From assembly GCF_030209475.1 (NCBI RefSeq), contig NZ_JARVRW010000003.1:62001-126000 (forward strand): a DNA stretch of 64,000 nt. The letters are read 5' to 3'. Shown one piece after another: positions 25,973 through 52,715 of the stretch; the stretch's first letter is position 1, and every line of letters begins with the position of its first letter. The stretch comes from Microbacterium sp. lyk4-40-TSB-66 (GTDB taxonomy: Bacteria; Actinomycetota; Actinomycetes; Actinomycetales; Microbacteriaceae). The notes below the pieces were generated by a model. It searched no databases and was not told the origin of the DNA. It was given only the letters and a program-made list of their open reading frames with translations. Position numbers and translations under genes: made by a program.

Positions 25973-26023
25973 GTGAGCGGAAGCGCGCCGTGGGGTGCGC
26001 CGTGACACGAGGACGTGCCCGCC

Positions 26024-26437
26024 ATGACTCTCTCCGCCCTACGCGACGACGCCCTGCGCGTCACCGCCACCACCACCGAGGTGCGCCTGTCGCTGCCGTG
26101 GATCCGCTCGCTCCCGCTGGCGAGCCTGCTCGAGCCCGTCGTGCAGCTCGACGGACGAGGGTACGAACCGGTCGTGCTCATCGACTCGCGACGGGTGACC
26201 GCCACCGAGCTGGCCGCCGAGGACACGTGGTGGTACCTGCAGGACCGGGTGGTGCTGCAGGTCCCGGATGCCGTGAGCCCCGGCATCCACGAGGTGGAGG
26301 TCTCGTTCCGGCTCGAGATCCCGTACCTGCCCGGCGGGCCCGATCAGCCGCTTCGCCTGCCGTTCTGCTTCCGCCGAACGCTCGAGGTCGGCGCCTCGGC
26401 CGCGAGCGTCTCGCGCGACGTCCGGAGCGCCGCGTGA
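26024..26437 (+). CDS. C-glycoside deglycosidase beta-subunit-like protein (pair 1)
   Basis: A 137-residue all-beta protein. It shares with the beta proteins at 30729 and 34225 the early LPWIRSLPLASL segment (others LPWYRSL..), a middle WWYLQDRVVL strand and a closing EVSFRLEIPYLPGG. This pattern matches the small subunit (DUF6379) of C-glycoside deglycosidases such as DgpB and CarB/CarC-type complexes, from family knowledge. The beta subunit packs on a TIM-barrel alpha subunit and contributes to the active site. GAGGA lies ten bases before the ATG. Its stop overlaps the GTG of the alpha gene. Among the beta proteins here it is the most divergent. Confidence 0.72.
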   Translation: MTLSALRDDALRVTATTTEVRLSLPWIRSLPLASLLEPVVQLDGRGYEPVVLIDSRRVTATELAAEDTWWYLQDRVVLQVPDAVSPGIHEVEVSFRLEIPYLPGGPDQPLRLPFCFRRTLEVGASAASVSRDVRSAA

Positions 26438-29526: not shown

Positions 29527-30732
29527 TCAGAGTGCGGGAACGGGGGCGCCCACGCGGGTCCAGGCGGACTCGGCGGCGCTGCTGCGTTCGACGGCGTCGA
29601 GCACGCGCTGCACGCGCAGGCCCTCCTCGAACGAGGGGTGCGGATCGGTGCCCGCGTCGATCGCTCCGACGAGGTCGACGACCTGATGGGTGAAGCCGTG
29701 CTCGTAGCCGAGCATGTGGCCGGCGGGCCACCATGCCGAGACGTACGGATGCTGCGGCTCGGTGACGAGCACCTGGGTGAAGCCCTGCCGGCCCTCGGGC
29801 GCGGTGCGGTCGTAGAAACGCAGGCTGTTGAGGTCTTCGAGGTCGAAGACGAGCGCGCCGCGGTCGCCCGACACCTCGATGGTGAGCGCGTTCTTGCGTC
29901 CGGTCGCGAAGCGCGTCGCCTCGAAGGAGGCCAGCGCGCCGTTCGCCAAGCGGCCCGTGAAGAGGGCGACGTCATCAACCGTGACCGCACCCCTCCCGTT
30001 CTCGCCGGCGGCCGCGGCCAGGCCCATCGACCCGTCGCCGGGCAGCGGACGCTCGGCGACGATCGTGTCGACCGTGCCCGACACCTGCTCGACGCCGAGG
30101 CCGGTGACGAACTGCGTCATGTCGATGATGTGCGCACCGATGTCGCCCAGCGCGCCCGAACCGGCGTGCTCCTTCTGCAGACGCCACATCAGCGGCATCT
30201 CGGGGTCGACGAGCCAGTCCTGCCGGTACGCCGCGCGCACCTGCTGTACGGTGCCGACGGCACCCTCGGCGATCATGTCGCGCAACAGCGTGACGGCCGG
30301 CACGCGGCGATAGGTGAACCCCACCATCGAACGGATGCCGCGCGCGCGGGCGCGCCCGGCGGCCTCGGCCATCGCCTCGGCCTCGGCCACGGTGTTGGCC
30401 AAGGGCTTCTCGCACAGCACGTGCTTGCCGGCCTCGAGGGCGGCGATCGCGATCTCGGCGTGCGATTCGCCCGGCGTGACGATGTCGACGATGTCGATGT
30501 CGTCGCGCGCGACGATCTCGCGCCAGTCGGTGGCCGACTCGGCCCAGCCCCATTTGCGGGCGGCCGAGGCCACGGCATCCGCGTTGCGTCCGACGACGAC
30601 GGTCATCTCGACCGCGCGCGGCAGATCGAACATGCGCGGCGCCTGACGCCACCCCACGGAGTGGGCGGCACCCATGAAGCCGTACCCGATCATCGCGACG
30701 CGGAGGGGACCGTGGGCCGGTGGGAGGGTCAT
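29527..30732 (-). CDS. Gfo/Idh/MocA family dehydrogenase in the CGD operon
   Basis: A 401-residue NAD(P)-dependent oxidoreductase. The Rossmann motif is [17 protein letters not shown], followed by [32 protein letters not shown] in segments; the catalytic region has [15 protein letters not shown]. Family members include DgpA, which oxidises C3 of the sugar in puerarin, and 3-keto-sugar reductases. In this operon it may prepare the glycoside for C-C cleavage, or reduce the released 3-keto-sugar. Its ATG overlaps the stop of the beta-subunit gene by four bases. Confidence 0.87.
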
Positions 30733-31145
30733 TGCAGCACCAGTTCGCGCTCGACCGGCACGCGGTTGGTGACGTAGCGACCGGGTCCGCCGTCGGCGCC
30801 CGGCATGATCTGCATGTAGAGCAGGCGCATGGTCAGCACGACCTCGACGGCGACCGTCTCACCCGCGGCGGGCGGGGCGTCGAGATGGATGAGCACGTCC
30901 GGGCGATCGGCGACGAACCACAGCGTCTCGGACTGCTGGGGCAGTTCCTCGACGCGGTACTGGCGGCCCTCGAGCGAGAAGCGGAGGTCGTCCTTCGGCA
31001 CGGTGACCCCGTTCACGATGACGGCGACGTCGTCGACGGCCGACAGCCAGAGGCTGCGGTACCAGGGCAGCTGCACCGAGACCGCGAGACCGTCGTCGGT
31101 GCGGCGGACGTCCTTCTCGGCGAAGAGGGAGTTGTGAGTGGCCAT
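30729..31145 (-). CDS. C-glycoside deglycosidase beta-subunit-like protein (set 2)
   Basis: A 138-residue all-beta protein. The sequence LPWYRSLWLSAVDDVAV, QYRVEELPQQSETLWF and YMQIMPGADGGPGRYVTN is very close to the N-terminal part of the fused protein at 41669-43147 and less close to the beta proteins at 34225 and 26024. This is the small (DUF6379-like) subunit of the C-glycoside deglycosidase family. Its best match as partner is the alpha subunit at 31956-33011, two genes upstream, because the same two sequences are joined in the fused protein. Stop overlaps the next ATG. Confidence 0.8.
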   Translation of the reverse strand: MATHNSLFAEKDVRRTDDGLAVSVQLPWYRSLWLSAVDDVAVIVNGVTVPKDDLRFSLEGRQYRVEELPQQSETLWFVADRPDVLIHLDAPPAAGETVAVEVVLTMRLLYMQIMPGADGGPGRYVTNRVPVERELVLQ

Positions 31146-31153: not shown

Positions 31154-31939
31154 CTAGGCGAAGGTGTCGGTGAAGCGGTCGTGTGCCACCGGGGGCACGG
31201 GCTCGAGCTTCTGCGTGGTCTCGGGGCTGTAGGGGTGGTTCTTCGCGGGCACCGGCTCATCGGCCGGCGGCATGAAGACGGGCTTGCCGTCGTCGCCGAA
31301 GTACATGAGGTCGAGGTCGAAGGCGCCCTGGTTCTTCACACCGAAGCTCACCCAGTTCTCTTCGAACGGAGCGCGGGCGAGCTCGTAGCAACGGAACTTC
31401 CAGAACTTCCACTCGCCGTCCTGCTTGCGGAAGTCGATGGCGTACTTGCACCAGACCCAGTGCGCCCAGACCTTCTTGCCGAGCACCTCGTCGGGCGAGT
31501 ACATGTCGGGGAAGGCCTCGGCGACCTTCGGGTCGGTCAGCCCCGACTCGGTGCCGGCCATCATCCAGACACCCTTGGCCGTCTCGCCGTCGGCGGCGAC
31601 CTCGATCACCGGGGTGTTCGTGGCGTGCAGGATGAGCTTGCCCTCGGGGTGCGGGCGACCGCGGTGGTAGTCGGTGACGCTCTGCCACGTCGTGTACTGC
31701 CCGGCGTTGGTGTACCGGGCGCGGATGCCCTCCGTCCCCTCCTTCACCCACAGCGGGATGATCTGCTCGTCCTCGAACGCGTTGTGCAGGTACATGTAGC
31801 GGTTGAAGAGGTTCTCGACCTGCCCGCGGTCCTCGGCGCGCTGGGCGAGCCGGTGGGCGGCCTCGACCTGTTCCCGCAGACGCGCGACCTCGGCGACGAG
31901 ATCGGTGACGGATGTCTCGGTGGTGCTAGACATGTCCAC
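31154..31939 (-). CDS. SnoaL-like protein within the CGD operon
   Basis: A 261-residue protein. Residues 8-45 form a probable coiled coil (VTDLVAEVARLREQVEAAHRL), followed by an NTF2/SnoaL-like domain recognisable from VENLFNRYMYLHNAFEDEQ, a central ESGLTDPKVAEAFPDM insertion and WKFWKFRCYELA. Related domains bind or isomerise polyketide and aromatic ligands. It sits between the alpha and beta subunit genes, so it may hold or chemically prime the aromatic part of the substrate. No catalytic residues can be assigned. The gap to the next gene is only eight bases. Confidence 0.72.
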   Translation of the reverse strand: MDMSSTTETSVTDLVAEVARLREQVEAAHRLAQRAEDRGQVENLFNRYMYLHNAFEDEQIIPLWVKEGTEGIRARYTNAGQYTTWQSVTDYHRGRPHPEGKLILHATNTPVIEVAADGETAKGVWMMAGTESGLTDPKVAEAFPDMYSPDEVLGKKVWAHWVWCKYAIDFRKQDGEWKFWKFRCYELARAPFEENWVSFGVKNQGAFDLDLMYFGDDGKPVFMPPADEPVPAKNHPYSPETTQKLEPVPPVAHDRFTDTFA

Positions 31940-31955: not shown

Positions 31956-33011
31956 TCAGGCGGGCTGGGTCGCGTCGGCGCGCTGGGCGACGGTGTCTTC
32001 GATCGCCGTGCGCATGAGCGCGTGCTGCTTCTTGACGAGGTCGATGGGGTCGCTCTCGCCGAGGTCGCTGAAGGCGTGACCCTCCCACTCGCTGGAGAGG
32101 TAGCCCTCGTAGCCGCCGATGACGAACTGCTTCACGATGCGCGGGATGTCCATGGCGGGCTCTTCGCCGTCGGCGCCGATGTCGTAGAACTTCGCGTGCA
32201 CGTGGAAGATCTGCGGCATGATGTCGAGCCACTCCTCGGGAGCGACGAGACCGTGCATGTTGAACGCGAGACGCGTGAACGGCCCGAAGCGCAGGAAGTC
32301 GACGCCCTCGCCCGAGAGGTAGTCCTCGAACTTCTGGTTGCGCACGTGCATCGGGGTCGGCTCGTGCCAGATCTCCTCCATGACCGGGAAGTGCTTCTCG
32401 TCCATGCCCATCTGCCCGAGGGTGCGCAGGAGCGTCGGCGAGAGCGAGTGCATGGTCGAGGAGAAGTCGGCGGTGAAGCCGAGGCGGTCCGACTGCAGCT
32501 CCTCGTACATCTCGCGCATCTCGAGCACCTTGGGGTCGTTGGGTCCCGACGGCGCGTGGATTTCGTACCCGAGCTTCTGGTCGTACTTCTCGGCGAGCGG
32601 AAGCAGGCTCCGCAGCAGTTCCTTGCCGTGCGAGCGGATGACGATCTTCTTGAAGCCGAGGGTGTGCGCGGCCTTCAACTGACGGGCGAGGAAGTCATGC
32701 TCCTCGTCGAGCGTCATGTCGCGGCTCTTGAGGCGGCCCATGTCGAGGTTGGTGCCGACGGCGCTGGCCTCGAGGCCGTACTTCTCGAGCGAGTCGAACC
32801 AGAGCGTGACGAACTCCGCGTCGACATCGGGGTACGAGCGCAGCAGCTGCGCGAAGTTGAACTCCACACCCGGGCCGATGCCCTGGTCGTGCACCTCTTT
32901 GATGAGGCTCTCGGGGGTGTAGAGACCGGCGGCGAACTCGCTCGTCATCGAGTAGAGCGTGGTGCCGAGCTTGATGCCGGTTCCGGCGATGCCGGTGGTG
33001 TCGTTCGTCAT
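31956..33011 (-). CDS. C-glycoside deglycosidase alpha-subunit-like TIM barrel (set 2)
   Basis: A 351-residue TIM-barrel protein. Expected metal ligands are Glu150 (YEIHAPSGP), Asp182 (TADFSSTMH), His272 (FHVHAKFYDI) and Glu308 (LSSEWEGHAF). Opening GIKLGTTLYSMTSEF and the RDMTLDEEHDFLARQ segment are nearly the same as in the C-terminal part of the fused protein at 41669. By family it would cleave 3-oxo-C-glycosides by deprotonation at sugar C2 and elimination of the aglycone. Its partner is probably the beta protein at 30729. Start ATG at 33011; upstream is a repeat-filled gap. Confidence 0.82.
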   Translation of the reverse strand: MTNDTTGIAGTGIKLGTTLYSMTSEFAAGLYTPESLIKEVHDQGIGPGVEFNFAQLLRSYPDVDAEFVTLWFDSLEKYGLEASAVGTNLDMGRLKSRDMTLDEEHDFLARQLKAAHTLGFKKIVIRSHGKELLRSLLPLAEKYDQKLGYEIHAPSGPNDPKVLEMREMYEELQSDRLGFTADFSSTMHSLSPTLLRTLGQMGMDEKHFPVMEEIWHEPTPMHVRNQKFEDYLSGEGVDFLRFGPFTRLAFNMHGLVAPEEWLDIMPQIFHVHAKFYDIGADGEEPAMDIPRIVKQFVIGGYEGYLSSEWEGHAFSDLGESDPIDLVKKQHALMRTAIEDTVAQRADATQPA

Positions 33012-33121: not shown

Positions 33122-34228
33122 TCAGGCGCGCACGGCGTGCGCGAGGTGGGCGTCCAGCGCGCGGCGCGCCTCCGCGACATCCGTGATCATGCGAGAGCCG
33201 GCGGCCTCGGCCGCGGTGCGCTGGAGGGCCTGCTCCCCGCGGATGATCTCGAAGGGGCTCTGCCAGTGGTTCCAGTGCCAGCCCTCGTACTCGCTCGAGA
33301 CGGCGCCGCTGTAGCCGTTGTCGACGAGCAGCGTGATGAGGTCGGCCACGGGCACCGAGGGCTCGTTCCCGTTCTCGTCGATGCCGAAGAACTTGCCGTG
33401 AACGTGCTTCACCCACGGCATGATCTCGAGCCAGTCGTCCACGCGCGCCGGACCGAACAGGCCCGTGCCGTTGATGCCGAAGTCGATGCCGAGATCGGGC
33501 CGGCCGTGCTGGTGCGCGAGGCCGATGAACCGCCCGAAACGTTGCCCGTGATCGGCCTGGTCGGCAGGCGGGCCCTGCTCGTAGAAGTCGTCCCACAGCT
33601 GCACGACGGCGGCCAGCAACTCCTCCGAGGCGCCGCGGCGGCGATACGCCTCGATGAGCGAGGGGGCGAAGCCCGAGACGGTCGCACCCCAGTCCATCGT
33701 GAAGCCGAGGAAAGGCGAGCCGACCTTCTCGTAGCGGTCGCGCAGCGCCAGGATGCGCGGGTGCGAGGCGTACTGGTCGGCGTGCACCTCGAGGGCGAGC
33801 GTCACACCGTACTCCTCGGCGACGGGGGCGAGGGCCTCCATCGAGTCGGGCGTGATCGAGATCTGCACGCGGGCGATGGGGAAGCCGAGCTTCGCTGCCG
33901 CCGCGATCTGCTTGCGCATATAGGCGAGGAGCTCGTCCTGGTTCATGAGCTTGTCGGGGCGCAGGCCGATGTCGGCGTTGACGGCGAGCGAGGTGCGCAC
34001 GAGGCCGACCTCGTCGACGAGGTCGGAGAAGCGCCCGGCGAAGTGGTCGTCGATCTCGGGGAACCCGCGGAAGCTCGAGAATCCGATGATCTCCAGCCCG
34101 GGCCCGAAACCCTCGGCCGCGGTCTTGCGGATGAGCTGGTCGAGATCGTATTCGCGGCCGTGGAAGGCGCGGGTGAAGCTGTAGAGGGTGACACCCTGGA
34201 TGGGAGTGCCCGGGGACGAAGCGGTCAT
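33122..34228 (-). CDS. C-glycoside deglycosidase alpha-subunit-like TIM barrel (set 3)
   Basis: A 368-residue TIM-barrel protein. Metal ligands: Glu147 (ALEVHADQY), Asp179 (FTMDWGAT), His277 (KHVHGKFFGID) and Glu313 (VSSEYEGWHW). It is clearly of the same family as the protein at 31956 but differs in the substrate loops (SGFAPSLIEAYRRRGAS, HGRPDLGIDFGING). Its ATG overlaps the stop of the adjacent beta gene, so these two form a pair. The last about 30 residues (RRALDAHLAHAVRA) extend beyond the other alpha proteins. Confidence 0.8.
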   Translation of the reverse strand: MTASSPGTPIQGVTLYSFTRAFHGREYDLDQLIRKTAAEGFGPGLEIIGFSSFRGFPEIDDHFAGRFSDLVDEVGLVRTSLAVNADIGLRPDKLMNQDELLAYMRKQIAAAAKLGFPIARVQISITPDSMEALAPVAEEYGVTLALEVHADQYASHPRILALRDRYEKVGSPFLGFTMDWGATVSGFAPSLIEAYRRRGASEELLAAVVQLWDDFYEQGPPADQADHGQRFGRFIGLAHQHGRPDLGIDFGINGTGLFGPARVDDWLEIMPWVKHVHGKFFGIDENGNEPSVPVADLITLLVDNGYSGAVSSEYEGWHWNHWQSPFEIIRGEQALQRTAAEAAGSRMITDVAEARRALDAHLAHAVRA

Positions 34229-34632
34229 GCGCGGGCCTCCTCGGCCTGACGGACGGTCATCGACTTCACGTCGTGCTCCTCGATGTGGAGCACCTGGTCG
34301 TCGGCGATGATGATGTACGGGATGTAGAGCTCGAGGTCGACGCGCACCTCGTGTGCGCCGGCATCCGCCGCCACCTCTCCCGAGAGCACCGCGGAGTCGG
34401 TGGGGAACCACCATTGCTCGGTGTTCGTCTTCATCTCGGCGAAGGTGAACTCCTCGCCGTTCATGCCCCACCGCAGGGAGTCGACCGGCGCCTCGACGCC
34501 GTCGACGGTCAGCTTCGCTCCTGAGATGCAGGATGCCGGCAGCGCCCGGTACCAGGGCAGGCGCACCTCCACCGACGCGCGTCCGCCGTGGGCGGTGAGC
34601 GTCCCCTGCTCGATGATGCGATCCGGGATCAC
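34225..34632 (-). CDS. C-glycoside deglycosidase beta-subunit-like protein (set 3)
   Basis: A 135-residue all-beta protein: VEVRLPWYRALPASCI, SLRWGMNGEEFTFAEM, QWWFPTDSAVL and VDLELYIPYIIIADD. These strands match the DUF6379-type small subunit of C-glycoside deglycosidases. It is the first gene of the eight-gene operon and overlaps its partner alpha gene by four bases. The promoter upstream carries CACTAATGTC, the complement of the shared motif. Confidence 0.78.
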   Translation of the reverse strand: MIPDRIIEQGTLTAHGGRASVEVRLPWYRALPASCISGAKLTVDGVEAPVDSLRWGMNGEEFTFAEMKTNTEQWWFPTDSAVLSGEVAADAGAHEVRVDLELYIPYIIIADDQVLHIEEHDVKSMTVRQAEEARA

Positions 34633-34720: not shown

Positions 34721-36268
34721 TCAGACCGATACGGATGCCGTGCCGACCTGCTCCCGCGACAGCACCGCCGCGATCTTCCGCGCCCCTCGCACCGCCAGAG
34801 CCACCGACGTCAGCGTGGGGTTGCACGCGGTCGAGGTCGGAATGACCCCGTTGCCGGCGACGAACAGATCCGGGACGCCCCAGACCTCGCTGTCGACGTC
34901 GCACACGCTCGTGCCGTCGTCGGCGACACCCATGCGCGTCGAGCCCTGATAGTGCAGCGACGACCCCGGCGGCAGGGTGAACGGACGGCTGTCGAGCGGG
35001 TCTCCGACCGCTTCACCGAGACGCACCACCTCCCGCCGCGCACGGTCGATGACCTCGTGGTCGCGGGCCGTGAGCGTGTAGTGGATGCGGGGTGCCGGCA
35101 TCCCGTAGCCGTCGACGTGATCGTCGTCGAAGGCGACGCGATCCTCTGCCTGCAGGTCTTTCGCGCAGAAAAGGCCGAGCCCCACGATCGAGCCGGGCAC
35201 GACGGGGTCGTCCTCGGCGAGCGGGATGGGCGAGGCGTCGAGCTGCATGATCTGACCGTGGAAGGGCATGCCGTCGGTGAACGGCACCCAGCTCACGCCG
35301 CTGTACTCGGCGAGCCCTGTCGCGGGAGCGTCGGCGTCGAGGGGCGGCATGTCGCGCAGGCGCGCCGCGAACACGATCTGCGCCTGGTCGTTGAGGTAGC
35401 GACCGAGGGCGTGGAGACGCACGCCCGACGCCCACAGCAGCTGCGGGGTGCGCAGCGCATCGGCGGCGACCACCACGAACCGGGCGGCGACCTCGTGCTC
35501 CTCCCCCGAGCGCAGGTCGCGCACACGCACGCCCGCGGCGCGGCCCGCGTCGCGCACGACCGCGGTCACGAGGGTCTCGTCGATCAGCGAGAAGCCGGGG
35601 TTGTCGCGCGTCACGTCGCCGAGCACCACGTCCGACCCCGACCACACCAGGCGGCCGTCGTCGCGACGGTGGGCGGCCAACGGCATCCGCTGCACCCGGG
35701 TCGCCTCGACGCGCCCCTCGTCGACCGCGGCGGACAGTCGCTCGCGCACGATGGCGCCGAAGGGCGCGGCGTCGAAGGCGTCGGTGCGCACTCCCAGCAG
35801 ACGCTCCCCCTCGGCGAGCAGCTCGTCGAGGTCGGGCAGGAAGGTGATGCGCTCGCTGTCGTTCGGGCGCGGGCACGCGCCCGTCCAGTGCGCCGCCATA
35901 CCGCCGACGTTGCTCGACATCGCCGCGACCGGCATCCCGTCCTCGCCGTCGAAGGCGTAGCCGTCCTCGAGCAGGAAGGTACCGGGACGCGCTCCGCGCA
36001 CCCCCGCCTTCGCCGCCCCCGGGTTGGCGACCTTCTCTCCGCGCTCGCCCGGGCCCTCCGACGCCACCTGCGCGCGGGCGCGCTCGGCCGGATCGGCGAT
36101 GTTCTTCACGTGCGCACCGGGAGGGTCCGACACCGTCGGGCCGACCTCGAACATGGCGATGGTCGCGCCCGGCGCCCGCTCCGAGAGGATGCGCGCGTAG
36201 GCCGCCCCCGTGGGTCCGCTGCCGACGATCACGACGTCGACCGCGTGCGGATACCGCCGGGCGTTCAT
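34721..36268 (-). CDS. Pyranose-oxidase-like GMC flavoprotein (second copy), candidate C-glycoside 3-oxidase
   Basis: A 515-residue FAD enzyme. FAD motif VVIVGSGPTGAAYAR (residues 12-26), NVGGMAAHWTGACP with His127 at the site used for covalent FAD in pyranose 2-oxidase, and the catalytic pair His439 (SSLHYQGS) and Asn483 (CNPTLTS). It parallels the enzyme at 11262-12875 but is clearly a different sequence. The ATG overlaps the stop of the Hyi-like gene. It is the last gene of the importer operon, so it probably oxidises the imported sugar or glycoside. CarA-like C-glycoside 3-oxidase is the favoured assignment from family and context; a plain pyranose oxidase is possible. Confidence 0.78.
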   Translation of the reverse strand: MNARRYPHAVDVVIVGSGPTGAAYARILSERAPGATIAMFEVGPTVSDPPGAHVKNIADPAERARAQVASEGPGERGEKVANPGAAKAGVRGARPGTFLLEDGYAFDGEDGMPVAAMSSNVGGMAAHWTGACPRPNDSERITFLPDLDELLAEGERLLGVRTDAFDAAPFGAIVRERLSAAVDEGRVEATRVQRMPLAAHRRDDGRLVWSGSDVVLGDVTRDNPGFSLIDETLVTAVVRDAGRAAGVRVRDLRSGEEHEVAARFVVVAADALRTPQLLWASGVRLHALGRYLNDQAQIVFAARLRDMPPLDADAPATGLAEYSGVSWVPFTDGMPFHGQIMQLDASPIPLAEDDPVVPGSIVGLGLFCAKDLQAEDRVAFDDDHVDGYGMPAPRIHYTLTARDHEVIDRARREVVRLGEAVGDPLDSRPFTLPPGSSLHYQGSTRMGVADDGTSVCDVDSEVWGVPDLFVAGNGVIPTSTACNPTLTSVALAVRGARKIAAVLSREQVGTASVSV

Positions 36269-37059
36269 GCGGCGCGTGCGATCTCGACGACGTGGGCGAC
36301 CGAGGCCTCCGACGCGGTGGTCGGGTAGTACTCCAGACCCACCGGGCCGTCGTAGCCTGCGTCGCGGAGCAGACGGAAGCGCTCGCTCCAGTCCAGCTCG
36401 CCCGCCCCGGGCTCGCCCCGGCCGGGGGCGTCGGCGAGCTGCACGTAGTGGATGAGACCGCCGGCGTTCGCGAGCTCCGCCTCCATGTCCTCGCCCTCGA
36501 CGGCCGAGTGGTAGATGTCGTAGAGCACGCCGAACTGCGGCGAGGCCACGCCGCGCGCGACGTACACGGCCTCGGAGGTGCGGTCCAGGAGCGACCCGGG
36601 GTGATCGACGCGGACGTTGACCGGCTCGAGCACGAGTCCGATCCCCGAGCCGTCGATCTGCGCGATGGCCTTCTGGTAGATCTCGACGAGCTTGTCGAGC
36701 TGCACCTGGCGCTTCCACCCGCCGAAGCCCGTGCCGCTTCCCACGACCAGGCGCGGGCAGCCGAGGTCGCGGGCGATCTCGACGCCCTCGTCGAGCTTGC
36801 GGAAGAACTCCGAGTGGTCCCACGGCGGGATCATGAACTGCGTGCGGGGTTCGGCCAGCTGCGCGGTGAGCTGCACGCCGGTCTCCTGGAGCGCGGCCTT
36901 GAGGGCGGGTAGGTCCTTCGGCGTCGCGGGGGCGTCGACTCCGGTCGGACCCCACATCTCCACGGCGTCGAAGCCCGCGGCCGCCGCCGCGCGGACGCGG
37001 TCGTGGTAATCGCCGGCCTCGGTGAAGAGGAGCTCGATGTTGGGGGCGAGTTGGTACAC
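36265..37059 (-). CDS. Hydroxypyruvate-isomerase-like TIM barrel
   Basis: A 264-residue protein of the Hyi/OtnI group of the xylose-isomerase-like superfamily. It opens LAPNIELLFTE and has the metal ligands Glu (LVLEPVNVR), Asp (LYDIYHSAVE), Gln (YVQLADAPGRGEPG) and Glu (VGLEYYP). It isomerises aldoses/ketoses or related keto-sugars. GAAAGGA lies six bases before the GTG at 37059, which I take as the start. It follows the ABC permeases and overlaps the flavin oxidase gene. Confidence 0.87.
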   Translation of the reverse strand: MYQLAPNIELLFTEAGDYHDRVRAAAAAGFDAVEMWGPTGVDAPATPKDLPALKAALQETGVQLTAQLAEPRTQFMIPPWDHSEFFRKLDEGVEIARDLGCPRLVVGSGTGFGGWKRQVQLDKLVEIYQKAIAQIDGSGIGLVLEPVNVRVDHPGSLLDRTSEAVYVARGVASPQFGVLYDIYHSAVEGEDMEAELANAGGLIHYVQLADAPGRGEPGAGELDWSERFRLLRDAGYDGPVGLEYYPTTASEASVAHVVEIARAA

Positions 37060-37096
37060 GGGGTGTCCTTTCGGGAACGCGGGCGCGACGATCGAC

Positions 37097-37119
37097 GGAT
37101 GCCGCGCTCTGCGGCATCC
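37097..37119 (-). terminator. Hairpin between the permease and Hyi-like genes
   Basis: A perfect 9-bp stem GGATGCCGC / GCGGCATCC with a 5-base loop lies in the 112-base gap. It probably lowers read-through from the transporter genes into the enzyme genes. Confidence 0.45.
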
Positions 37120-37171
37120 AGGTGGGCTCAGCCGATGGGGCCGGTGGGCCGGCACCCTCGAGAGGAAGGCG

Positions 37172-38008
37172 TCAGCCCTTCAAACCGCCGGCGAAGCCCT
37201 GGATGAAGCGCTTCTGGGCGAAGAGGTAGAAGGCGAGGATCGGGATCATCGAGACGATGACGATCGCGAAGATCTGGTTCCAGGCCGACACGAGCGAGCC
37301 GATGTAGTAGTACATGGCCACCGGGAGGGTCTGGTTCGCCGATCCGCCGAGGAAGATCAGCGAGGTGAAGAAGTCGTTCCAGACGATCAGGCCCGCGAGG
37401 ATCGCGACGGTGCCGGTCGCCGGCGACATGAGCGGCAGCACGATGCGGAAGAAGATCTGCGTGCGGCTCGCGCCGTCGATGGTCGCGGCCTCCTCGTACT
37501 CGGTGCCGAGCCCGCGGAAGAAGCCCGCGTAGAGGAAGATCGACAGCGGCAGCAGCATGCCGGTGTAGAGGATGATCATGCCCCACGCCGATCCGGTGAG
37601 ACCGAGCGCGCGGGCGCCGATGTACAGCGGGACCGTACCCAGCTGGGTCGGCAGCACGATGGCGACGAGGAACAGGTAGTACACCACGCGGCTCCAGCGC
37701 CGGGTGCTGCGGGCGATGACGTAGCCGGTGAGGGAGCCCAGCAGCACCATGAGCACGATGCTGCCGGCGGTGATGATGATGCTGTTGATCAGGCCCATCA
37801 CGACGTTGGAGTTTCCGGTCGCGGTGAGCACCTTGACGAAGTTGCCGAAATCGGGGGCGCTCGGCGGCGCCAGCGTCGACGACGTGATCACCTCGCGATC
37901 CGACTTCAGCGACGTGGTGACGAGGAAGTAGAAGGGGAGCAGGAACGCGAGGGCCGCGATCCAGAACAGGAACTCCCGCAGGCCCGTGAGCTTGGTGTAG
38001 CGGAACAT
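37172..38008 (-). CDS. ABC sugar importer permease, MalG type
   Basis: A 278-residue inner-membrane permease with six helices. The cytoplasmic EAA loop that contacts the ATPase is YEEAATIDGASRTQIFFRI. It is a CUT1-class (oligosaccharide/glycoside) permease and pairs with the gene upstream, from which it is separated by one base. No ATPase gene is in the cluster, so a shared MsiK-type ATPase elsewhere is likely, as is usual in actinobacteria. Confidence 0.92.
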   Translation of the reverse strand: MFRYTKLTGLREFLFWIAALAFLLPFYFLVTTSLKSDREVITSSTLAPPSAPDFGNFVKVLTATGNSNVVMGLINSIIITAGSIVLMVLLGSLTGYVIARSTRRWSRVVYYLFLVAIVLPTQLGTVPLYIGARALGLTGSAWGMIILYTGMLLPLSIFLYAGFFRGLGTEYEEAATIDGASRTQIFFRIVLPLMSPATGTVAILAGLIVWNDFFTSLIFLGGSANQTLPVAMYYYIGSLVSAWNQIFAIVIVSMIPILAFYLFAQKRFIQGFAGGLKG

Positions 38009-38009
38009 G

Positions 38010-38987
38010 TCAGTTCTCCTCCGAGCGGCCGCCGGTCAGGCGCTGCTGCACGACGGCGAAGACCAGGATGATGAGGGTCAGCAGCAGCGCGAGCGCCGCG
38101 CCGTAGCCGAAGTTGCCGAGCGCGAACGACTGCTTGTAGACCTGCGTCGCGAGGGTCTCGGTCGCGGCGGCGGGTCCGCCGCCGGTGAGCGCCATGATCT
38201 GGTCGAACACGCGCAGGCCGTTGACGAGGCCCAGGGTGGTCGCGATCGCGACGGCGGGGCGGATCGAGGGGAGGGTCACGTGCCAGAAGCGCTGCCAGAG
38301 GTTCGCGCCGTCGATCGCCGCGGCCTCCTCGATCTCGACGGGCACCGCCGCCAGCCCCGCCATGTAGATGACCATCGCGAAGCCGATGTTCTGCCACACG
38401 AGCACGACGAGGATCGTCCAGATCGCCCAGGTGGGGTCGGCGATCCACGCCCGCGCCATCGAGTCGAGGCCCATCCCCCGCAGCACGAGGTTGAGCGGGC
38501 CGTTGTAGTCGAAGATGAATTTCCAGATGTACGAGGTGGCCAGCGGGCTGAGCACCACGGGCATGAAGAACAGCGTCCGCAGGATGTAGCGGCTCTTCAG
38601 CCCCCGGTTCAGGCCCAGGGCGACGCCGAGGCCCAGGACGTTGCTGAGGATCACCGAGCCGAACGCCAGGAACAGGGTGTTCCACAGGGCGCCGATCTTG
38701 GTGGGGTCCTGGAAGATGCGGACGAAGTTGTCGAGCCCGACGAGCTCGAAGGCGCCGATGCCCGTCCAGTTCGTGAAGGAGAAGAAGCCGCCGATGCTGG
38801 TGGCGACGTAGTGGATGCCGATGACGAAGAGCACCCCGGGCAGGGCCCACCACCAGTAGCCGAACTGCAACAGGCCCTTGCGACGCGGGGCCGGTGCCGT
38901 GCGGCGGCCACGGCCGCCTCGGCGGGGCAGGACCACGCGTTCGGTCTCGGTGGCGGCGATGTCGCCGCTTCGGAAGGTGGTGCTCAT
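38010..38987 (-). CDS. ABC sugar importer permease, MalF type
   Basis: A 325-residue permease with six or seven helices and a basic cytoplasmic N-terminus (RRGGRGRRTAPAPRRKG). The EAA loop reads EEAAAIDGANLWQRFWHVT. It is the partner of the MalG-type permease in a CUT1 importer. A strong hairpin in the gap upstream separates it from the binding-protein gene. Confidence 0.92.
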   Translation of the reverse strand: MSTTFRSGDIAATETERVVLPRRGGRGRRTAPAPRRKGLLQFGYWWWALPGVLFVIGIHYVATSIGGFFSFTNWTGIGAFELVGLDNFVRIFQDPTKIGALWNTLFLAFGSVILSNVLGLGVALGLNRGLKSRYILRTLFFMPVVLSPLATSYIWKFIFDYNGPLNLVLRGMGLDSMARAWIADPTWAIWTILVVLVWQNIGFAMVIYMAGLAAVPVEIEEAAAIDGANLWQRFWHVTLPSIRPAVAIATTLGLVNGLRVFDQIMALTGGGPAAATETLATQVYKQSFALGNFGYGAALALLLTLIILVFAVVQQRLTGGRSEEN

Positions 38988-39020
38988 CAGATCCTCGTCA
39001 TCCTCGATCGGGGTGCGGCT

Positions 39021-39053
39021 CCGCCGCCCGGGTCTCGACGTCCCGGGCGGCGG
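39021..39053 (-). terminator. Hairpin between binding-protein and permease genes
   Basis: A perfect 12-bp GC stem (CCGCCGCCCGGG / CCCGGGCGGCGG) with a 9-base loop lies seven bases after the binding-protein stop codon. Such mid-operon hairpins usually let the binding protein be made in excess over the permeases. Confidence 0.65.
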
Positions 39054-39059
39054 AATCTC

Positions 39060-40352
39060 TCAGTTGCCCCAGGCCGAATCCATGTTCTGAAGCACCTGGT
39101 CGATGCTGGTCTGGCCGGTCAGCAGACCCTGGACGCCCACCTGCAGCGCCTCGTAGACGGCCGGGTTGGGCCAGACGTTGTTCGGCAGCGTGGTGTACGA
39201 GCCGTTCGAGATGTCGGTGACGACCTCGGAGTAGATCGTGTCGCTGAGGTCCAGGTTCTTGTACTCCGAGATGGGGAGCAGGCCCGAGGCCTCGTAGTAC
39301 TTCTGCTGCGCGTCGGGCGTCGCCAGCCAGTCGACGAACTTCGTCGCGGCATCCTTCTTGGTCGACTTCGCGTTGATCGAGATCGTGTAGTTCGAGCTCG
39401 CCAGCACGTAGGGCTTGCCGCCGTCGGCCGCGGGGAAGGGCTGCACCTTGAAGTCCGCCTCCGGCGGGGCCGCCGTGGCGATCTCGACCGCCGAACCCGA
39501 GGGGATGAAGCTGCCGATGGAGGTGCCCTGGGCGAGGCCGTTGGTGATGGCGTCGAAGCCGCCGCCCTCGGCACCGGGCTGGAAGCAGCCGCCGTCCTTC
39601 AGGTCGACGATGGTCTGGAGTGCATCGGCCCAGCCCTTGCTGTCGGCGAAGGTGGTCTCGCCCGCGGCGCGCTCGGTGTTGAACTCGGGGTCGGAGGCGT
39701 ACACGCGGGTCGCGGCGATGCCCTGGGCGGTCAGACCCGCGTTGGGGCCGGCCGCGCCGGCGAGGGCGAGCATCGACTTGCCCTGGCCCGCGAGAGCGGA
39801 GCAGTCCGCGTAGAAGTCGTCCATCGTCGTGGGCCACTCGGTGATGCCGTTCATGCCGGCGGTCCCCATGCTCGCGACCACGGCGGCGATGGTGAAGTCG
39901 AGGGGCTGACCGTAGGTCTTGCCGTCGACCTCGAACAGCGTCTCGCTGCCGGAGGGCACGAGCGAGGTGGCCGTGTCGCCGAGGGGCTCGAGGAAGCCCG
40001 CTTCGGCGAGGGGGATGAGGCCGCGGGCGTCGCCCGATCCGGGCGTGGTCTGCACGACGTCGGAGGCGTTGCCGGCCTGGAGCTGCGTGCGGATGGTCTC
40101 GCCGTACTTGTCGTTGGGCGTGGGGTTGGTGGTGATGGTCACACCGGGGTTCGCCGCCATGTACTCCTTGGCGAGCGTCTCGTAGGGGCTCTCGAGGTTG
40201 TTGGAGGTGGCGAAGGTGAACGTGAACGATTCGGAATCGCCCTCTGCGGCACCGCCCGTTCCTCCGCCGGAGCACCCGGCGAGGACGAGGGCGGCGGTGG
40301 CGGGAAGAACGAGGAGACCTGCGATCCGCGTGACGCGGCGATGCTGAGTCAT
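39060..40352 (-). CDS. ABC importer sugar-binding lipoprotein
   Basis: A 430-residue extracellular solute-binding protein (family 1). A signal peptide ends in a lipobox (ALVLAGCSGGG), so it is tethered to the membrane. SFTFTFATSNNLESPYETLAKEYMAANPGVTI in segments is the normal first domain, and WPNPAVYEALQVGVQGLLTG the C-terminal end. It gives the transporter its specificity, which sequence alone does not reveal. AAAGG lies seven bases before the ATG. The gene heads the operon and is divergent from LysR. Confidence 0.92.
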   Translation of the reverse strand: MTQHRRVTRIAGLLVLPATAALVLAGCSGGGTGGAAEGDSESFTFTFATSNNLESPYETLAKEYMAANPGVTITTNPTPNDKYGETIRTQLQAGNASDVVQTTPGSGDARGLIPLAEAGFLEPLGDTATSLVPSGSETLFEVDGKTYGQPLDFTIAAVVASMGTAGMNGITEWPTTMDDFYADCSALAGQGKSMLALAGAAGPNAGLTAQGIAATRVYASDPEFNTERAAGETTFADSKGWADALQTIVDLKDGGCFQPGAEGGGFDAITNGLAQGTSIGSFIPSGSAVEIATAAPPEADFKVQPFPAADGGKPYVLASSNYTISINAKSTKKDAATKFVDWLATPDAQQKYYEASGLLPISEYKNLDLSDTIYSEVVTDISNGSYTTLPNNVWPNPAVYEALQVGVQGLLTGQTSIDQVLQNMDSAWGN

Positions 40353-40415
40353 GGCCAGCCTTTCTGACGACGTTGTCGGCGAGCCCTTCGGTGGGAGCGC
40401 CTGTGCTGTGTGACT

Positions 40416-40479
40416 CAGTATCGGCGCGATGCGCAGAAAACGCACATAAGTCTTCGCGATGTGGCGCATAAGGCGGGGC
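40416..40479. promoter_or_regulatory. Operator region between the importer operon and LysR gene
   Basis: It contains CACATAAGTC (40443-40452), a match to the regulon motif, and GCGCATAAGGC about 30 bases later. ATGCGC (about 40428) and GCGCAT (about 40464) form distant inverted halves as in LysR sites. A -10-like GATACT reads towards the binding-protein gene. A TACGAT (40537-40542) could be the -10 of lysR. Confidence 0.45.
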
Positions 40480-40576
40480 GCCCGCCGCCTCATCGCCCGC
40501 GGATATGCCACCTAGCTCCGTCATAGATGCGGTTGATACGATCGGACCACAGCTTCCCCGAGCGAAGGATCACGAC

Positions 40577-41518
40577 GTGGTGACCGATCATGCGACGCTC
40601 TCGCGCCTCGACCTGAACCTCCTGGTCGCCCTCGACGCCCTGCTCACCGAGCGCAGCGTCACCCGCGCGGCGGAACGGCTGCACCTCAGCCAGCCCGCCC
40701 TCAGCGCATCGCTGGCGCGCCTGCGCACCCACTTCGACGACCAGATCCTCGCCCGCCGTGGCAACACCTACGAACTGACGCCGTTCGCCGTCCGGCTCAC
40801 CGAGCACACGACGACGGCGCTCGAGGCCGCCCGACGCGTGTTCGAGAGCCAGGCGTCGTGGTCGCCCGCGGAGTCCACCCGCGAGTTCTCCATCTACGGA
40901 TCGGACTACGGCTTCGTCACCGTCGGCACGATCGTCTCTCAGCTCGCCGCCGAGCGGGCGCCCGGCGTGCGGTTCCGCTACATGCTGCACAACCCGGGCA
41001 TCGTCGAAGACGCGGCCAACCGGCTGCGTTCGGCAGACGGCATGGTGATCCCGCACGGTCCCGTCTCGGGGCTGCCCTACCTCGACCTCTGGCAGGACGA
41101 TTGGTTCGCAGTCGTCTCGGCCGACAACGGCGAGGTCGGAGAGTCTCTGACGATGCAGAACCTCGCCGACATGCCGTGGGTGCTCACGTTCCAATCGCGG
41201 TCGGCGTTCACCTCGGCCGCCCGCCAGATCCAGCAGCTCGGCGTCGAGCCGCACATCGAGGTGGTGCTGGAGAGCTTCCTCTCGGTCGGGCACTTCGTCA
41301 GCGGCACCCGTCGCGTCGGGCTCGTGCAGTCGGCGCTCGCCCCCCATCTGCTGCGCATCGGCGGCATCCGGGTCGTACCCCTGCCCTTCGCCGCGACGCC
41401 CCTCGTGAGCGCGCTGTGGTGGCACCCCTCGCACACCCGCGATCCGGAGCACGAGTGGATGCGCGGGCTCTTCGCCGAAGCGGGCCGCGTCATCGCCGCC
41501 GGGCACGCTCCCGCCTAG
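40577..41518 (+). CDS. LysR-family transcriptional regulator
   Basis: A 313-residue regulator. The N-terminal helix-turn-helix is LDLNLLVALDALLTERSVTRAAERLHLSQ (in two parts), followed by PALSASLARLRTHFDDQIL and a PBP2-like effector domain; the closing WHPSHTRDPEHEWMRGL resembles the NodD/NahR-type subgroup that senses aromatic compounds. GAAGGA lies seven bases before the GTG at 40577; the in-frame ATG at 40505 lacks a ribosome site. It is divergent from the importer operon and probably activates it in response to a ligand such as the aglycone. Confidence 0.9.
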   Translation: MVTDHATLSRLDLNLLVALDALLTERSVTRAAERLHLSQPALSASLARLRTHFDDQILARRGNTYELTPFAVRLTEHTTTALEAARRVFESQASWSPAESTREFSIYGSDYGFVTVGTIVSQLAAERAPGVRFRYMLHNPGIVEDAANRLRSADGMVIPHGPVSGLPYLDLWQDDWFAVVSADNGEVGESLTMQNLADMPWVLTFQSRSAFTSAARQIQQLGVEPHIEVVLESFLSVGHFVSGTRRVGLVQSALAPHLLRIGGIRVVPLPFAATPLVSALWWHPSHTRDPEHEWMRGLFAEAGRVIAAGHAPA

Positions 41519-41668: not shown

Positions 41669-43147
41669 TCAGACGGCCGCCGTCACCGCCCGCATCGACG
41701 CCCGGATGAGGTCGTGCTGGCGCCGCACGAGCAGCAGGGGGTCGACGTCGCCGAGTTCGGCGAAGGCGTGGCCCTCCCATTCACTCGACCAGAAGCCGCG
41801 GTACCCGCCCTCGACGAACACGCGCACGAGCTCGGGATAGTCGATCGCCGGCTCCTGACCGCTGTCGTCGATGTCGTAGAACTTCGCGTGCACGTGCAGG
41901 ATCTGCGGCATGATGTCGGCCCACTCCCGCGGGTCGACATGGCCGTGCATGTTGAAGGCGAGGTGCGCGAACGAACCCAGCCGACCCGGGTCGAAGTCGC
42001 GGCCGCGCAGGTAGCCGAGGAACTCCTGCTGACGCTCGCGCATCGCGGCATCCGTCGCCCAGATCTCCTGCAGCTTCCCCACCGCCTCGTCGTCAAGACC
42101 CGCTCGGCGCACGGCCCGCAGCAGGGTCGGCGACATCGCGTGCATGGTCGAGGAGAAGTCGGCGACGAAGCCCAGCAGGGGCGAATCGAGCTCGGCGTAG
42201 GTCTCGCGCACGCGAAGCACGGGCTCCGCGTTCGGACCCATCGGCGCGTGGATCTCGTAGGCGAGCTTCAACTCGAGGTCCTCCGCGAGCGGGAGCAGTC
42301 GCCGCAGCAGTTCGGGCTTCGCGCTCTGGATCCGCACCAGCGGGAAGCCGAGCTTCTTCGCTCCCTCGAACATGAGCTTCGAGAAGGCGAACTCCTCGTC
42401 GGGGGTCATGTCGCGATCACGGCGTCGCCCCATGTCGAGGTTCGCACCGAACGAGCTCGCGACGAACCCGTGCCGGTCGAACGCCGCCCGCCACGTGCGC
42501 ACGAAGTCGTCGCCGACCACGGGGTAGGTCGGCACCATCTGGGATGCCACGATCTCGATGCCCGGGCCGATCCCCAGCTCCGCCACGCGGTCGAGCAGAC
42601 CGTCGAAGTCGAAGTACCCCGCGCGGAACTCGGCGCTCGCCGAGTACAGCGTCAGCCCCAGCTGGAACGGGTCGTCGTCACTCGCCGGGGGCGGTGGCGT
42701 GACGTCCGACACGAGCGCGGGGATCCCGGCATCCGCGTCGACGACCGTGAGGGTCTTCACGTCGTGCACGACGTTCGGCACGTACATCCCGGGCCCGCCG
42801 TCCGGGCCCGGCGCGATCTGCATGTAGGGCAGGCGCAGCTCGCCGTGCAGCACGACGTCGTGCGTCTCGCCGAGGGCGACCGGGGCGGCGCGGCGGGCGA
42901 TCAGCAGCGGGTGCTCCTGCAGGAACCACAGTCGTTCGCTCTGTTCGGGCAGTTCGTCGAGCCGGTACGAGGTGTCGACGAACGCGACCCGGAGGTCGTC
43001 GGCATCCACCTGCTCCCCGTCGACGGTGAGGGCGAGGGTCGTCACCGATGACAGCCAGAGACTGCGATACCAGGGGATGGTCAGGCGAAGCGCGAGCCCG
43101 TCGGGGTGCGCGCGCAGGCTGTCGTCGTGGATGAGGCCGTTGGGCAT
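41669..43147 (-). CDS. Single-chain C-glycoside deglycosidase: beta and alpha parts fused
   Basis: A 492-residue protein in one open frame. Residues 1-136 are a CGD beta module (LTIPWYRSLWLSSVTTLAL, LRLPYMQIAPGPDGGPG), a Pro/Asp-rich linker spans about 137-160 (TPPPPASDDDP), and residues 161-492 are a CGD alpha TIM barrel (LGLTLYSASAEF). Metal ligands are Glu298 (YEIHAPMGP), Asp330 (VADFSS), His420 (LHVHAKFYDI) and Glu457 (WSSEWEGHAF). Both halves are closest to the separate proteins at 30729 and 31956. GAGGAG lies six bases before the ATG. By family it should cleave 3-oxo-C-glycosides. Described members of the family, as I know them, are two-subunit complexes. Confidence 0.82.
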   Translation of the reverse strand: MPNGLIHDDSLRAHPDGLALRLTIPWYRSLWLSSVTTLALTVDGEQVDADDLRVAFVDTSYRLDELPEQSERLWFLQEHPLLIARRAAPVALGETHDVVLHGELRLPYMQIAPGPDGGPGMYVPNVVHDVKTLTVVDADAGIPALVSDVTPPPPASDDDPFQLGLTLYSASAEFRAGYFDFDGLLDRVAELGIGPGIEIVASQMVPTYPVVGDDFVRTWRAAFDRHGFVASSFGANLDMGRRRDRDMTPDEEFAFSKLMFEGAKKLGFPLVRIQSAKPELLRRLLPLAEDLELKLAYEIHAPMGPNAEPVLRVRETYAELDSPLLGFVADFSSTMHAMSPTLLRAVRRAGLDDEAVGKLQEIWATDAAMRERQQEFLGYLRGRDFDPGRLGSFAHLAFNMHGHVDPREWADIMPQILHVHAKFYDIDDSGQEPAIDYPELVRVFVEGGYRGFWSSEWEGHAFAELGDVDPLLLVRRQHDLIRASMRAVTAAV

Positions 43148-43234
43148 GGGGATCTCCTCAGTGCGGGGCGCGGGTAGATCGGCGCGGAGGTGGATGCGGG
43201 TGCGGTGGGCGCCCGCGCGGGTGTCGCCGGTCGG

Positions 43235-44536
43235 TCAGAGGCGATCGGCGATCTGACGCATCAGCGAGTGCTGGCGGCGGACCTGTTCGATGCTGCGCCA
43301 GGGCTCCCGCTCTCCCTCGTACTCGCTGGAGAGGTAGCCGGTGTACCCCGCATCCTTGAACGCCTTCAGCACGGGCTCCCACGGGATCTGCTGGTCGTCG
43401 AGGTTCTCGTCGATGTCGTGGAACTTCGCCTGGATGAACACGACGTTCTCGATGACGTCGAACACGTCGGCGGGGTCGACGTGGATGCCGTCGAGGAAGG
43501 CCGGGCGCTGCCCCGGCAGTTCGCCGGGGCGGAGCGGGATCGGGCGGTCCTGGAAGATGCCGGTGTCGAGCAGGAGGCCGAAGTGCTTCGTACCGGTGCG
43601 ACGGATCAGGGCGATGTAGTCGTCGACGACCTCGTGCTTGATGGGGGTGGGCGAGTGGATCTCGGGGCAGATGATCACATCGAGCTCTTCGGCCAGCGGC
43701 AGCGAGGCCTCGACGACCTCGGTCCAGATCGGGTGCGGGATGAGGTCGCTCGAGACCACGCCGATCTTCGGCCGGACGAACCGGAAGCCGAGACGCTGGG
43801 CGAGCCGCAGGTCGCGCTGCAGGGCGGCGGCCCCTTCGTCGACCGTCATGTCGCGGCCGTTCGGGCCGCTCGAGTGCAGGCGCGTATCGATCCACGAGCC
43901 GTAGTTCGTGGGCTCGAGGCCGTACTTCGCGAGGAGCGCGAACCAGTCGTCGACCCACTCCTGCGAGGGGTTCGGGTAGTTCGGCACATGGCCTTCGCCG
44001 AGGATCTCCACGCCCGTCGCCCCGAGGTCGGCGATCGAGGCGAGGGCGGTCTCGAGGTCCATCACGGTGCCGTAGTCGCCCATGTAGCTGTAGAGCGAGA
44101 CGCCGTACCGGAAGGGGGCACCGGATGCCTCGGGGGAGAGCGTGACGTTCTTGGTCACGCGGTACCTGCTCGGCTGGTGCTCCTGCGGAATGTACGACAT
44201 CCGCAGGCGCAGGTCGATCGACAGCTCGTGCGTGCCGTCGGGCAGACCGCCGGGAAGCGGAACCGTGATGATCGCGGCGTCTTCGAGCGGCCAGCGCACG
44301 CCGTCGCCGTCCCACAGCTCGGCGAGCGTGTACTGCCGGCCCTGCAGGGTCCACAGCGGGACGTCGGGTTCGACGTCGACGAGACCCGGGATGCTCACGC
44401 CGATCCCGTCGACCAGCGAGGCGGACATGCCGCGGTACGACGGCATCCGCACCCGGAACTGGAATCCGGTGATCTCGCCGCCCTCGCGGACGTTGCGGAA
44501 GCCGACGGACTGGATGAGGTCTCTCTCGAGAAGCAT
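43235..44536 (-). CDS. Single-chain C-glycoside deglycosidase, divergent: beta and alpha parts fused
   Basis: A 433-residue protein. Residues 1-133 are a beta module (VRMPSYRGMSASLVDGI, LWTLQGRQYTLAEL, LRMSYIPQEH), joined by a very short linker to the alpha barrel from about residue 142 (YGVSLYSYMGDYGTVM). Metal ligand positions: Glu292 (CPEIHSP), Asp324 (LLLDTGIF), Gln369 (FIQAKFHDID) and Glu405 (LSSEYEGER). The third is His in the other CGD-like proteins; Gln is used at this place in Hyi-type relatives, so it may still bind metal. It is more distant from the other sets and may act on a different glycoside. Same-strand neighbour of the first fused gene, 87 bases apart. Confidence 0.78.
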   Translation of the reverse strand: MLLERDLIQSVGFRNVREGGEITGFQFRVRMPSYRGMSASLVDGIGVSIPGLVDVEPDVPLWTLQGRQYTLAELWDGDGVRWPLEDAAIITVPLPGGLPDGTHELSIDLRLRMSYIPQEHQPSRYRVTKNVTLSPEASGAPFRYGVSLYSYMGDYGTVMDLETALASIADLGATGVEILGEGHVPNYPNPSQEWVDDWFALLAKYGLEPTNYGSWIDTRLHSSGPNGRDMTVDEGAAALQRDLRLAQRLGFRFVRPKIGVVSSDLIPHPIWTEVVEASLPLAEELDVIICPEIHSPTPIKHEVVDDYIALIRRTGTKHFGLLLDTGIFQDRPIPLRPGELPGQRPAFLDGIHVDPADVFDVIENVVFIQAKFHDIDENLDDQQIPWEPVLKAFKDAGYTGYLSSEYEGEREPWRSIEQVRRQHSLMRQIADRL

Positions 44537-46138: not shown

Positions 46139-46141
46139 GGC

Positions 46142-50890: not shown

Positions 50891-50891
50891 C

Positions 50892-51698: not shown

Positions 51699-51752
51699 GG
51701 GGTCTCCTTCGACGCCTCCATCGTCCGGCACCGCGAGCTCGTGCGGCGAACC

Positions 51753-51771: not shown

Positions 51772-51788
51772 CGTGGCATCCTGACCCC

Positions 51789-52653: not shown

Positions 52654-52715
52654 GAGCCGGTGCGCAGGCCTGCGGCGAGGCACCATCGACCACAGCCGTC
52701 GTCGAAGGAGACGCC

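Follow-up and report, generated by a model that had tools for sequence, protein, structure and literature searches.

We analyzed a 64,000-nucleotide stretch of the genome of Microbacterium sp. lyk4-40-TSB-66 (contig NZ_JARVRW010000003.1, positions 62,001 to 126,000; hereafter the window, in whose numbering all coordinates are given) and found that 2 adjacent genes, F1 and F2, each encode a predicted C-glycoside deglycosidase (CGD) as a natural single-chain fusion of the β and α subunits. CGDs are 3-keto-C-glycoside lyases and are thought to strip sugars from stubborn plant compounds. The 2 genes were fused separately. F2 is the orthologue of a single-chain enzyme already present in the PDB, whereas F1 seems to be a second, separate class of single-chain CGD, undescribed in the literature searched, most subscription papers lying outside the scope of that search. 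The features of the 2 genes are as follows.

41669..43147 (-): F1, fused CGD of 492 residues (β module, linker and α barrel), on the branch near AgCGD2
42743..43147 (-): F1 β module, residues 1–135, from the CGDB match and the Tyr column; Tyr27 corresponds to Tyr39 of the β subunit of PuCGE
42668..42742 (-): F1 linker rich in Ala, Pro and Asp, about residues 136–160
41672..42667 (-): F1 α TIM barrel, residues 161–492
43235..44536 (-): F2, fused CGD of 433 residues, orthologue of PDB 8QRZ/8UN2
44126..44536 (-): F2 β module, residues 1–137; Tyr34 corresponds to Tyr39 of the β subunit of PuCGE
44117..44125 (-): F2 junction, practically without linker
43238..44116 (-): F2 α TIM barrel
43424–43432: F2 residues 369–371, with Gln at the His269 site

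Both frames are open over these coordinates, and domain matches place a β module followed in frame by an α barrel in each, in the same order, as an earlier note on the sequence had described. The N-terminal part matches the Pfam family CGDB (PF19906) with 46.6 bits in F1 and 108.8 bits in F2 (cut-off 27.6). The C-terminal part matches AP_endonuc_2 with 68.9 bits in F2 and 30.2 bits in F1, the latter slightly below the cut-off of 31.1, and both barrels are homologous to solved CGD α subunits (F1 with 7DNM_A, 429 bits; F2 with 7BVS_A, 217 bits). NCBIfam gave no match for the six proteins scanned. F1 is also closest to the separate subunits that the earlier note had named, with 52% to the α subunit at 31956 and 47% to the β subunit at 30729, against 33% to the α subunit at 33122.

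F2 matched PDB 8QRZ_A from end to end (phmmer E-value 2.4e-281), with 93.3% identity over 433 residues. The entries 8QRZ (crystal) and 8UN2 (cryo-EM), titled "Microbacterium testaceum C-glucosyl deglycosidase (CGD), wild type" and released on 2025-04-23, were deposited as one 435-residue chain, and residues 1–433 of the 8QRZ chain are identical to a gene product of Microbacterium testaceum NS220 (L288). A naturally fused CGD has already been solved twice, the second time by cryo-EM. The earlier note had suggested that the architecture may be new; because F2 is the orthologue of 8QRZ/8UN2, this fails for F2. What is left of the suggestion concerns F1. The examined passages of PMC8563793 and other papers describe CGDs as 2 separate polypeptides, whereas F1 and F2 are single frames. 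Since 8QRZ and 8UN2 are single-chain CGDs, that trait is a description of the characterized members and not a mechanistic one.

The best PDB matches of F1 are the chains of AgCGD2, for α the 7DNM_A match given above and for β 7DNM_B (85 bits). None of the 15 PDB sequences matched is a fused relative from the F1 branch; the sole fused ones, 8QRZ and 8UN2, belong to the F2 branch. Our literature search returned no paper naming 8QRZ or 8UN2, none on a fused CGD and none for DUF6379, and a fused CGD is absent from the examined passages of PMC8563793, PMC12141560, PMC10807413, PMC10628242, PMC12724307, PMC10646112 and PMC11673046.

The fused form of F1 recurs in other genomes. In a sample of 299 genomes of the family, 20 gave a match, and 14 of these carry full-length F1 as a single open frame (nine genus codes; 65–100% identity), while a class-wide sample of 246 genomes held F1 in two, both of the window's genus. 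Among named loci, the best 80 of 153 relatives found with F1 as query, F1 is fused in 77; in a further locus set it is fused in 70 of 72 rows. The named loci overlap with the genome samples (G numbers), and their counts are not additive. Named genera carrying F1 include Microbacterium, Agromyces, Arthrobacter, Pseudarthrobacter, Leifsonia, Naasia, Subtercola, Amnibacterium, Curtobacterium, Demequina and others. Unfused relatives stand in L365 (Microbispora siamensis) and L363 (an actinobacterial metagenome-assembled genome, MAG), where β ends in TGA and the ATG of α follows 10 and 12 nucleotides on, in β-α order; the two genes of L363 share one frame. This layout is what an arrangement before fusion would look like and shows how the F1 fusion could arise. 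Two other loci had been called split F1 and were rejected: in L207 the frame change lies inside α, with β, linker and the start of α sharing one frame, and L191 is without DNA at the junction. L359, the same DNA as L191 and likewise missing the junction, is counted among the three unfused named loci. Genes about 80% identical to the window's F1 were also found in L360 (MAG: Fulvimarina sp. NAT173) and L359 (titled Planococcus sp. APC 4015). These records probably reflect contamination, misbinning or mislabelling, and L359 shares DNA with a genome of the window's genus.

The earlier note had given F1 a linker and F2 almost none, and relatives of both genes agree. In the 77 fused named relatives of F1, 22–35 residues lie between the domain edges (24% Ala and 21% Pro, plus Val, Asp and Thr), compared with about 25 in the window; fixed motifs stand 51 residues apart in 68 of the 77, and the length varies by whole codons only. 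For F2, the flanking motifs are present in 126 of 136 fused rows, and the 88 distinct junctions among them have a constant length of 27 codons; the other 10 rows were left out of the substitution analysis, and one of them (L357) appears longer. We counted substitutions from the end of β to the start of α. Codon positions 3, 1 and 2 took 2925, 774 and 897 substitutions in F1 (203 equal-length pairs) and 7641, 3246 and 2882 in F2 (928 pairs), the pairs sharing history so that the counts are not independent. A non-coding spacer would lack such a bias, indicating that the junctions are translated. Together with the in-frame recurrence in independently sequenced genomes, the third-position bias bears out the claim of the earlier note that these are natural single-chain fusions of the β and α subunits.

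The history of the fusions was examined with trees. In an 82-row tree of α plus β with the linker excluded, fused F1 is sister to the split AgCGD2 type and fused F2 lies among split pairs of its own type. Forcing fused F1 and F2 into one clade costs 324 log units (approximately unbiased test, p-AU 2.7e-60), indicating that F1 does not go back to the same fusion event as 8QRZ. In the tree of F2 with outgroups, which have long branches, the fused F2 rows form a single clade (support 100) nested in a grade of split pairs; the fork at which five split rows join the fused clade is supported at 80, and at 99 in the 82-row tree with four such rows. In the corresponding F1 tree, fused F1 is one clade (support 98) against split relatives. 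From this outgroup placement, the direction is likely fusion rather than fission. For the overall tree, L203, L135, L191 and L207 were dropped and at most nine rows per class were kept in addition to the window's (20 for the mixed class). The F2 tree was built without L203 (contig end) and L135, with fused rows thinned to every second and rows below 45% identity to F2 excluded. From the F1 tree, L359 and L360 (cut at a contig end) were dropped and rows below 48% identity excluded, and fused rows outside the chosen list were thinned to every fourth.

Two other accounts of the single frames were weighed against separate fusion of adjacent genes. It is hardly credible that both frames are assembly or frameshift artefacts in which a stop between separate genes was missed. 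An apparent F2-type fusion of this kind does exist in G090 (L135), a genome 68% complete, where a frame change lies inside β, and it was set aside as an indel artefact. Both fusions, however, recur in dozens of independent genomes, their junctions change length by whole codons and carry the third-position bias, and a relative of F2 was deposited as one 435-residue chain; recurrence and codon bias led us to reject a sequencing artefact as the cause. We also regard it as improbable that single chains came first and gave rise to the separate pairs by gene fission. The trees infer no root, and in a third subfamily, T3, described below, fused and split forms are mixed with 7 changes, although a single fused clade is not rejected (p-AU 0.29). 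With outgroups, however, fused F2 lies inside a split grade and fused F1 is one clade against split relatives, and the other solved CGDs are split.

To assess the active sites, 401 distinct α sequences in eight classes were surveyed, identical α sequences being counted once and rows below 48% identity to their own type or shorter than 270 residues excluded; residue numbers are those in the examined parts of PMC8563793 and PMC10628242, with AgCGD2 numbering for α. F1 residues E298, H300, D330, H420, K422 and E456 correspond to AgCGD2 E147, H149, D179, H269, K271 and E305, and fused F1 keeps all six as well as β Tyr39 in 104 of 104 distinct rows. F2 keeps E292, H294, D324, K371 and E405, with Q369 at the position of the metal ligand His269. 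This Gln is found in 100 of 100 fused F2 rows and in 15 of 16 split relatives, the other surveyed residues being kept in fused F2. Thus, of the metal ligands Glu147, Asp179, His269, Lys271 and Glu305, F1 has all five and F2 four. The catalytic His149 (His143 of PuCGE; H300 in F1 and H294 in F2) is kept in 104/104 and 100/100 rows, respectively. In pairwise alignments, 8QRZ has Gln at the His269 position like F2, and EuCGD has His.

It is highly probable that both F1 and F2 act as single chains, with the metal-dependent 3-keto-C-glycoside lyase activity predicted from their sequences. They belong to a recurrent cluster for C-glycoside catabolism that also holds a relative of C-glycoside 3-oxidases, a sugar transporter, a LysR regulator and 2 split CGD pairs. 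The mechanism would follow that in the examined parts of PMC8563793, PMC10628242 and PMC13273386. The oxidase of the cluster would make the 3-keto-glycoside by oxidation at C3. In a pocket between the 2 covalently joined modules, the metal would bind the 3-keto sugar, α His149 would remove the C2 proton, and the β Tyr would hold the ionized phenol of the aglycone and so activate it; β-elimination would then release the aglycone and 2-hydroxy-3-keto-glucal. According to the examined part of PMC10628242, PuCGE lost C-glycoside cleavage without β or with Tyr39 changed to Phe. The fusion may have arisen by loss of the stop codon between adjacent β and α genes, the spacer and the α leader becoming the linker. 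It would fix a 1:1 pairing of subunits that are possibly not interchangeable, and would prevent mispairing among five related α/β sets in one cell; the part of PMC8563793 examined reports that the subunits of PuCGD and EuCGD are not exchangeable.

An alternative is that F1 and F2 catalyze consecutive steps, one cleaving the C-C bond and the other hydrating the 2-hydroxy-3-keto-glycal or handling 3-keto-O-glycosides. The F2-F1 tandem is kept in 67 of 80 named loci, the 2 proteins are strongly divergent and F2 has Gln for a metal His, all of which would fit such a division of labor. We consider it unlikely, since the depositors named 8QRZ/8UN2, 93% identical to F2, a C-glucosyl deglycosidase, and both His149 and Tyr39 are kept in F1 and F2. 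Several points weigh against the reading of both as single-chain lyases whose fusion secures pairing. The Gln of F2 means that its chemistry or metal may differ; in the examined part of PMC8563793, His-to-Ala at the equivalent site lowered the activity of PuCGD and MiCGD, against which stands the near-identical relative deposited as a C-glucosyl deglycosidase. Late in the junction stretch of F1, 74 of 78 rows have an in-frame GTG (10 have ATG, 6 TTG), making a separate α product from an internal start possible. The alpha4/beta4 type, whose genes in the window also stand in β-α order and overlap by 4 nucleotides, is split in every row, so that avoidance of mispairing is not a sufficient reason for fusion and a cell can manage without a covalent link. 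The choice of the named loci with F1 as query favors fused forms. Finally, single-sequence AlphaFold models of F1 and F2 were unusable (pLDDT 42 and 48); the F2 model served in Foldseek for entry titles and one identity figure, and no structural conclusion was drawn from it.

The third subfamily, T3, lies in the window as a split pair. No Pfam family matched it at E 0.001, and it was found with custom profiles.

26015..26437 (+): T3 β-like subunit, split in the window
26428..27405 (+): T3 α-like barrel with the catalytic His replaced by Gln, start approximate

T3 also occurs in L086, L095 and L218–L246. Of the 67 orthologous T3 loci, 28 are fused, with linkers of 21–86 residues (19% Ala, 15% Pro), and 39 are split; L283 had no T3 β that could be found. 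For the tree, 8 of 75 rows were dropped (repeats L095, L138, L284, L247 and L230; broken L280, L281 and L282). Residues were read from the rows of the tree set. All 70 T3 rows have Gln in place of His149 and Ile in place of β Tyr39, so that neither residue expected of a CGD is present, and it keeps the metal ligands, one row having gaps at three of them. T3 is thus a CGD homologue that is not to be classed as a CGD, and it possibly performs another step of the pathway. On a contig of G037 (L138, 13628–19723, +), a stop-free frame of 2032 codons holds a fused T3 gene, an extreme case of the long open frames seen in high-GC DNA. As a tentative proposal, which we regard as possible rather than probable, β was welded to α at least 3 separate times (F1, F2 and T3) in the same actinobacterial cluster and always in the β-α order; F1 is an uncharacterized single-chain class beside the split pairs and the oxidase in Arthrobacter globiformis and Pseudarthrobacter siccitolerans, species in which the family was characterized; and T3 took over another step, such as hydration or isomerization of the 3-keto-glycal.

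All four CGDB genes of the genome (3.57 Mb in 18 contigs) lie in the window: F1, F2 and the β genes at 30729 and 34225. Within the genus, 68 of 295 genomes have CGDB genes; across the phylum, 5 of 396 genomes gave matches, two of which proved false. The surroundings of F1 and F2 are as follows.

40505..41518 (+): LysR-type regulator, convergent with F1 and divergent from the transporter genes, a frequent neighbor
37172..40511 (-): ATP-binding cassette (ABC) sugar transporter
39060–40511 (-): solute-binding protein of the transporter, start uncertain
38010–38987 (no Pfam scan) and 37172–38008 (-): permeases of the transporter
36265..37155 (-): xylose-isomerase-like TIM barrel, start uncertain
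34721..36268 (-): GMC oxidase, close relative of the C-glycoside 3-oxidases PsG3Ox/PsPOx (7QF8) and MtCarA (7DVE)
34225..34632 (-): beta4, separate CGD β subunit, with a 4-nucleotide overlap with its partner at 33122–34228
33122..34228 (-): alpha4, separate CGD α subunit, 368 residues from the likely ATG
31956..33011 (-): alpha3, separate CGD α subunit, AgCGD2 orthologue (7DNM_A, 594 bits)
31154..31939 (-): SnoaL-like protein between alpha3 and beta3
30729..31145 (-): beta3, separate CGD β subunit
44972–53888: thiolase, 2 CoA-transferase genes, CMD, lyase, protocatechuate dioxygenase and FAD-binding enzyme, a β-ketoadipate-type aromatic operon

The oxidase matches 7QF8 (830 bits) and 7DVE (805 bits) over nearly its whole length. 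Every one of the 58 distinct rows of the alpha4/beta4 type is split, as are all 76 when repeats are counted. At a threshold of at least 35% identity over half the query, which may include paralogues and applies to some loci that are cut short, the named loci have a solute-binding protein in 69 of 80, LysR in 60, the permeases in 60 and 59, and the GMC oxidase in 57; the F2 gene that makes up the tandem lies directly upstream of F1 (<400 nucleotides). Pseudarthrobacter siccitolerans 4J27 (L340) and Arthrobacter globiformis NBRC 12137 (L348) share the gene order of the window: F2, F1, LysR, transporter, barrel, oxidase and split pairs. The PsG3Ox paper reports four CGD open reading frames downstream of the oxidase, and its examined passages make no mention of the fused pair upstream (PMC10646112). 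Microbacterium trichothecenolyticum DSM 8608 (L350) has the fused tandem, and the stretch examined there showed neither a split pair nor a GMC oxidase. The thiolase and CoA-transferase genes lie just upstream of F2, the thiolase being present in 18 of 80 named loci; an operon of the β-ketoadipate type at this place fits the use of aromatic aglycones. Among the 80 named loci, many of them too short to reach that point, 7 showed a relative of the SnoaL-like gene.

Weak CGDB matches in long frames of G384 and G613 (L106, 8790–10361, +; L109, 608–2149, +) were rejected as CGD fusions; each is an HMG-CoA_red_N-like domain (PF25653, the better fit) joined to a URO-D barrel. L106 also matches methylcobalamin:CoM methyltransferase. 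The β of L365 matches both CGDB and HMG-CoA_red_N, and the 2 domains may be related.

Heteromeric enzymes are rarely compared side by side with natural fused counterparts. Here a single locus carries 2 fused and 3 split forms from the same superfamily of enzymes, and Microbispora retains unfused relatives of F1, so that natural pairs are available for testing why subunits fuse. With a single-chain CGD near AgCGD2, one gene would suffice for a practical catalyst that cleaves C-glycosides or, in reverse, synthesizes them, and the conserved loss of the catalytic pair in T3 points to a further pathway step.

Among known systems, the Microbacterium testaceum CGD (8QRZ, 8UN2) is most like F2: a single chain in β-α order without linker. 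F1, in contrast, belongs to a different branch with an Ala/Pro linker and probably has a lid domain absent from F2, as suggested by α length alone (329 versus 293 residues). The nearest solved split relative of F2 is EuCGD, or DfgA-DfgB (7BVS, 7DRE; α as above, β 78 bits), which differs in having separate chains assembled as α4β4 (PMC8563793, examined in part) and His instead of Gln at the metal position. The C-glucosyl deglycosidase of Deinococcus aerius (8QVC, 8UMC) belongs by sequence to the same family as F1 and F2 and has separate chains; it is 28% identical to the F2 barrel in a Foldseek alignment with the poor F2 model. AgCGD2, or AgCarB2-C2, of Arthrobacter globiformis (7DNM, 7DNN) is the nearest solved relative of F1, in which its tested active-site residues are kept; it is an α-β heterodimer of separate chains whereas F1 is one chain, and its orthologue in the window is the split pair 31956/30729 and not F1. 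In the family prototype PuCGD/PuCGE, or DgpB-DgpC (7BVR, 7EXZ, 7XRF), the chains are again separate, and its β Tyr39 and catalytic His are conserved in F1 and F2. Its partner oxidoreductase DgpA is of the Gfo/Idh/MocA type according to the examined part of PMC11239390, whereas the window has a GMC oxidase instead.

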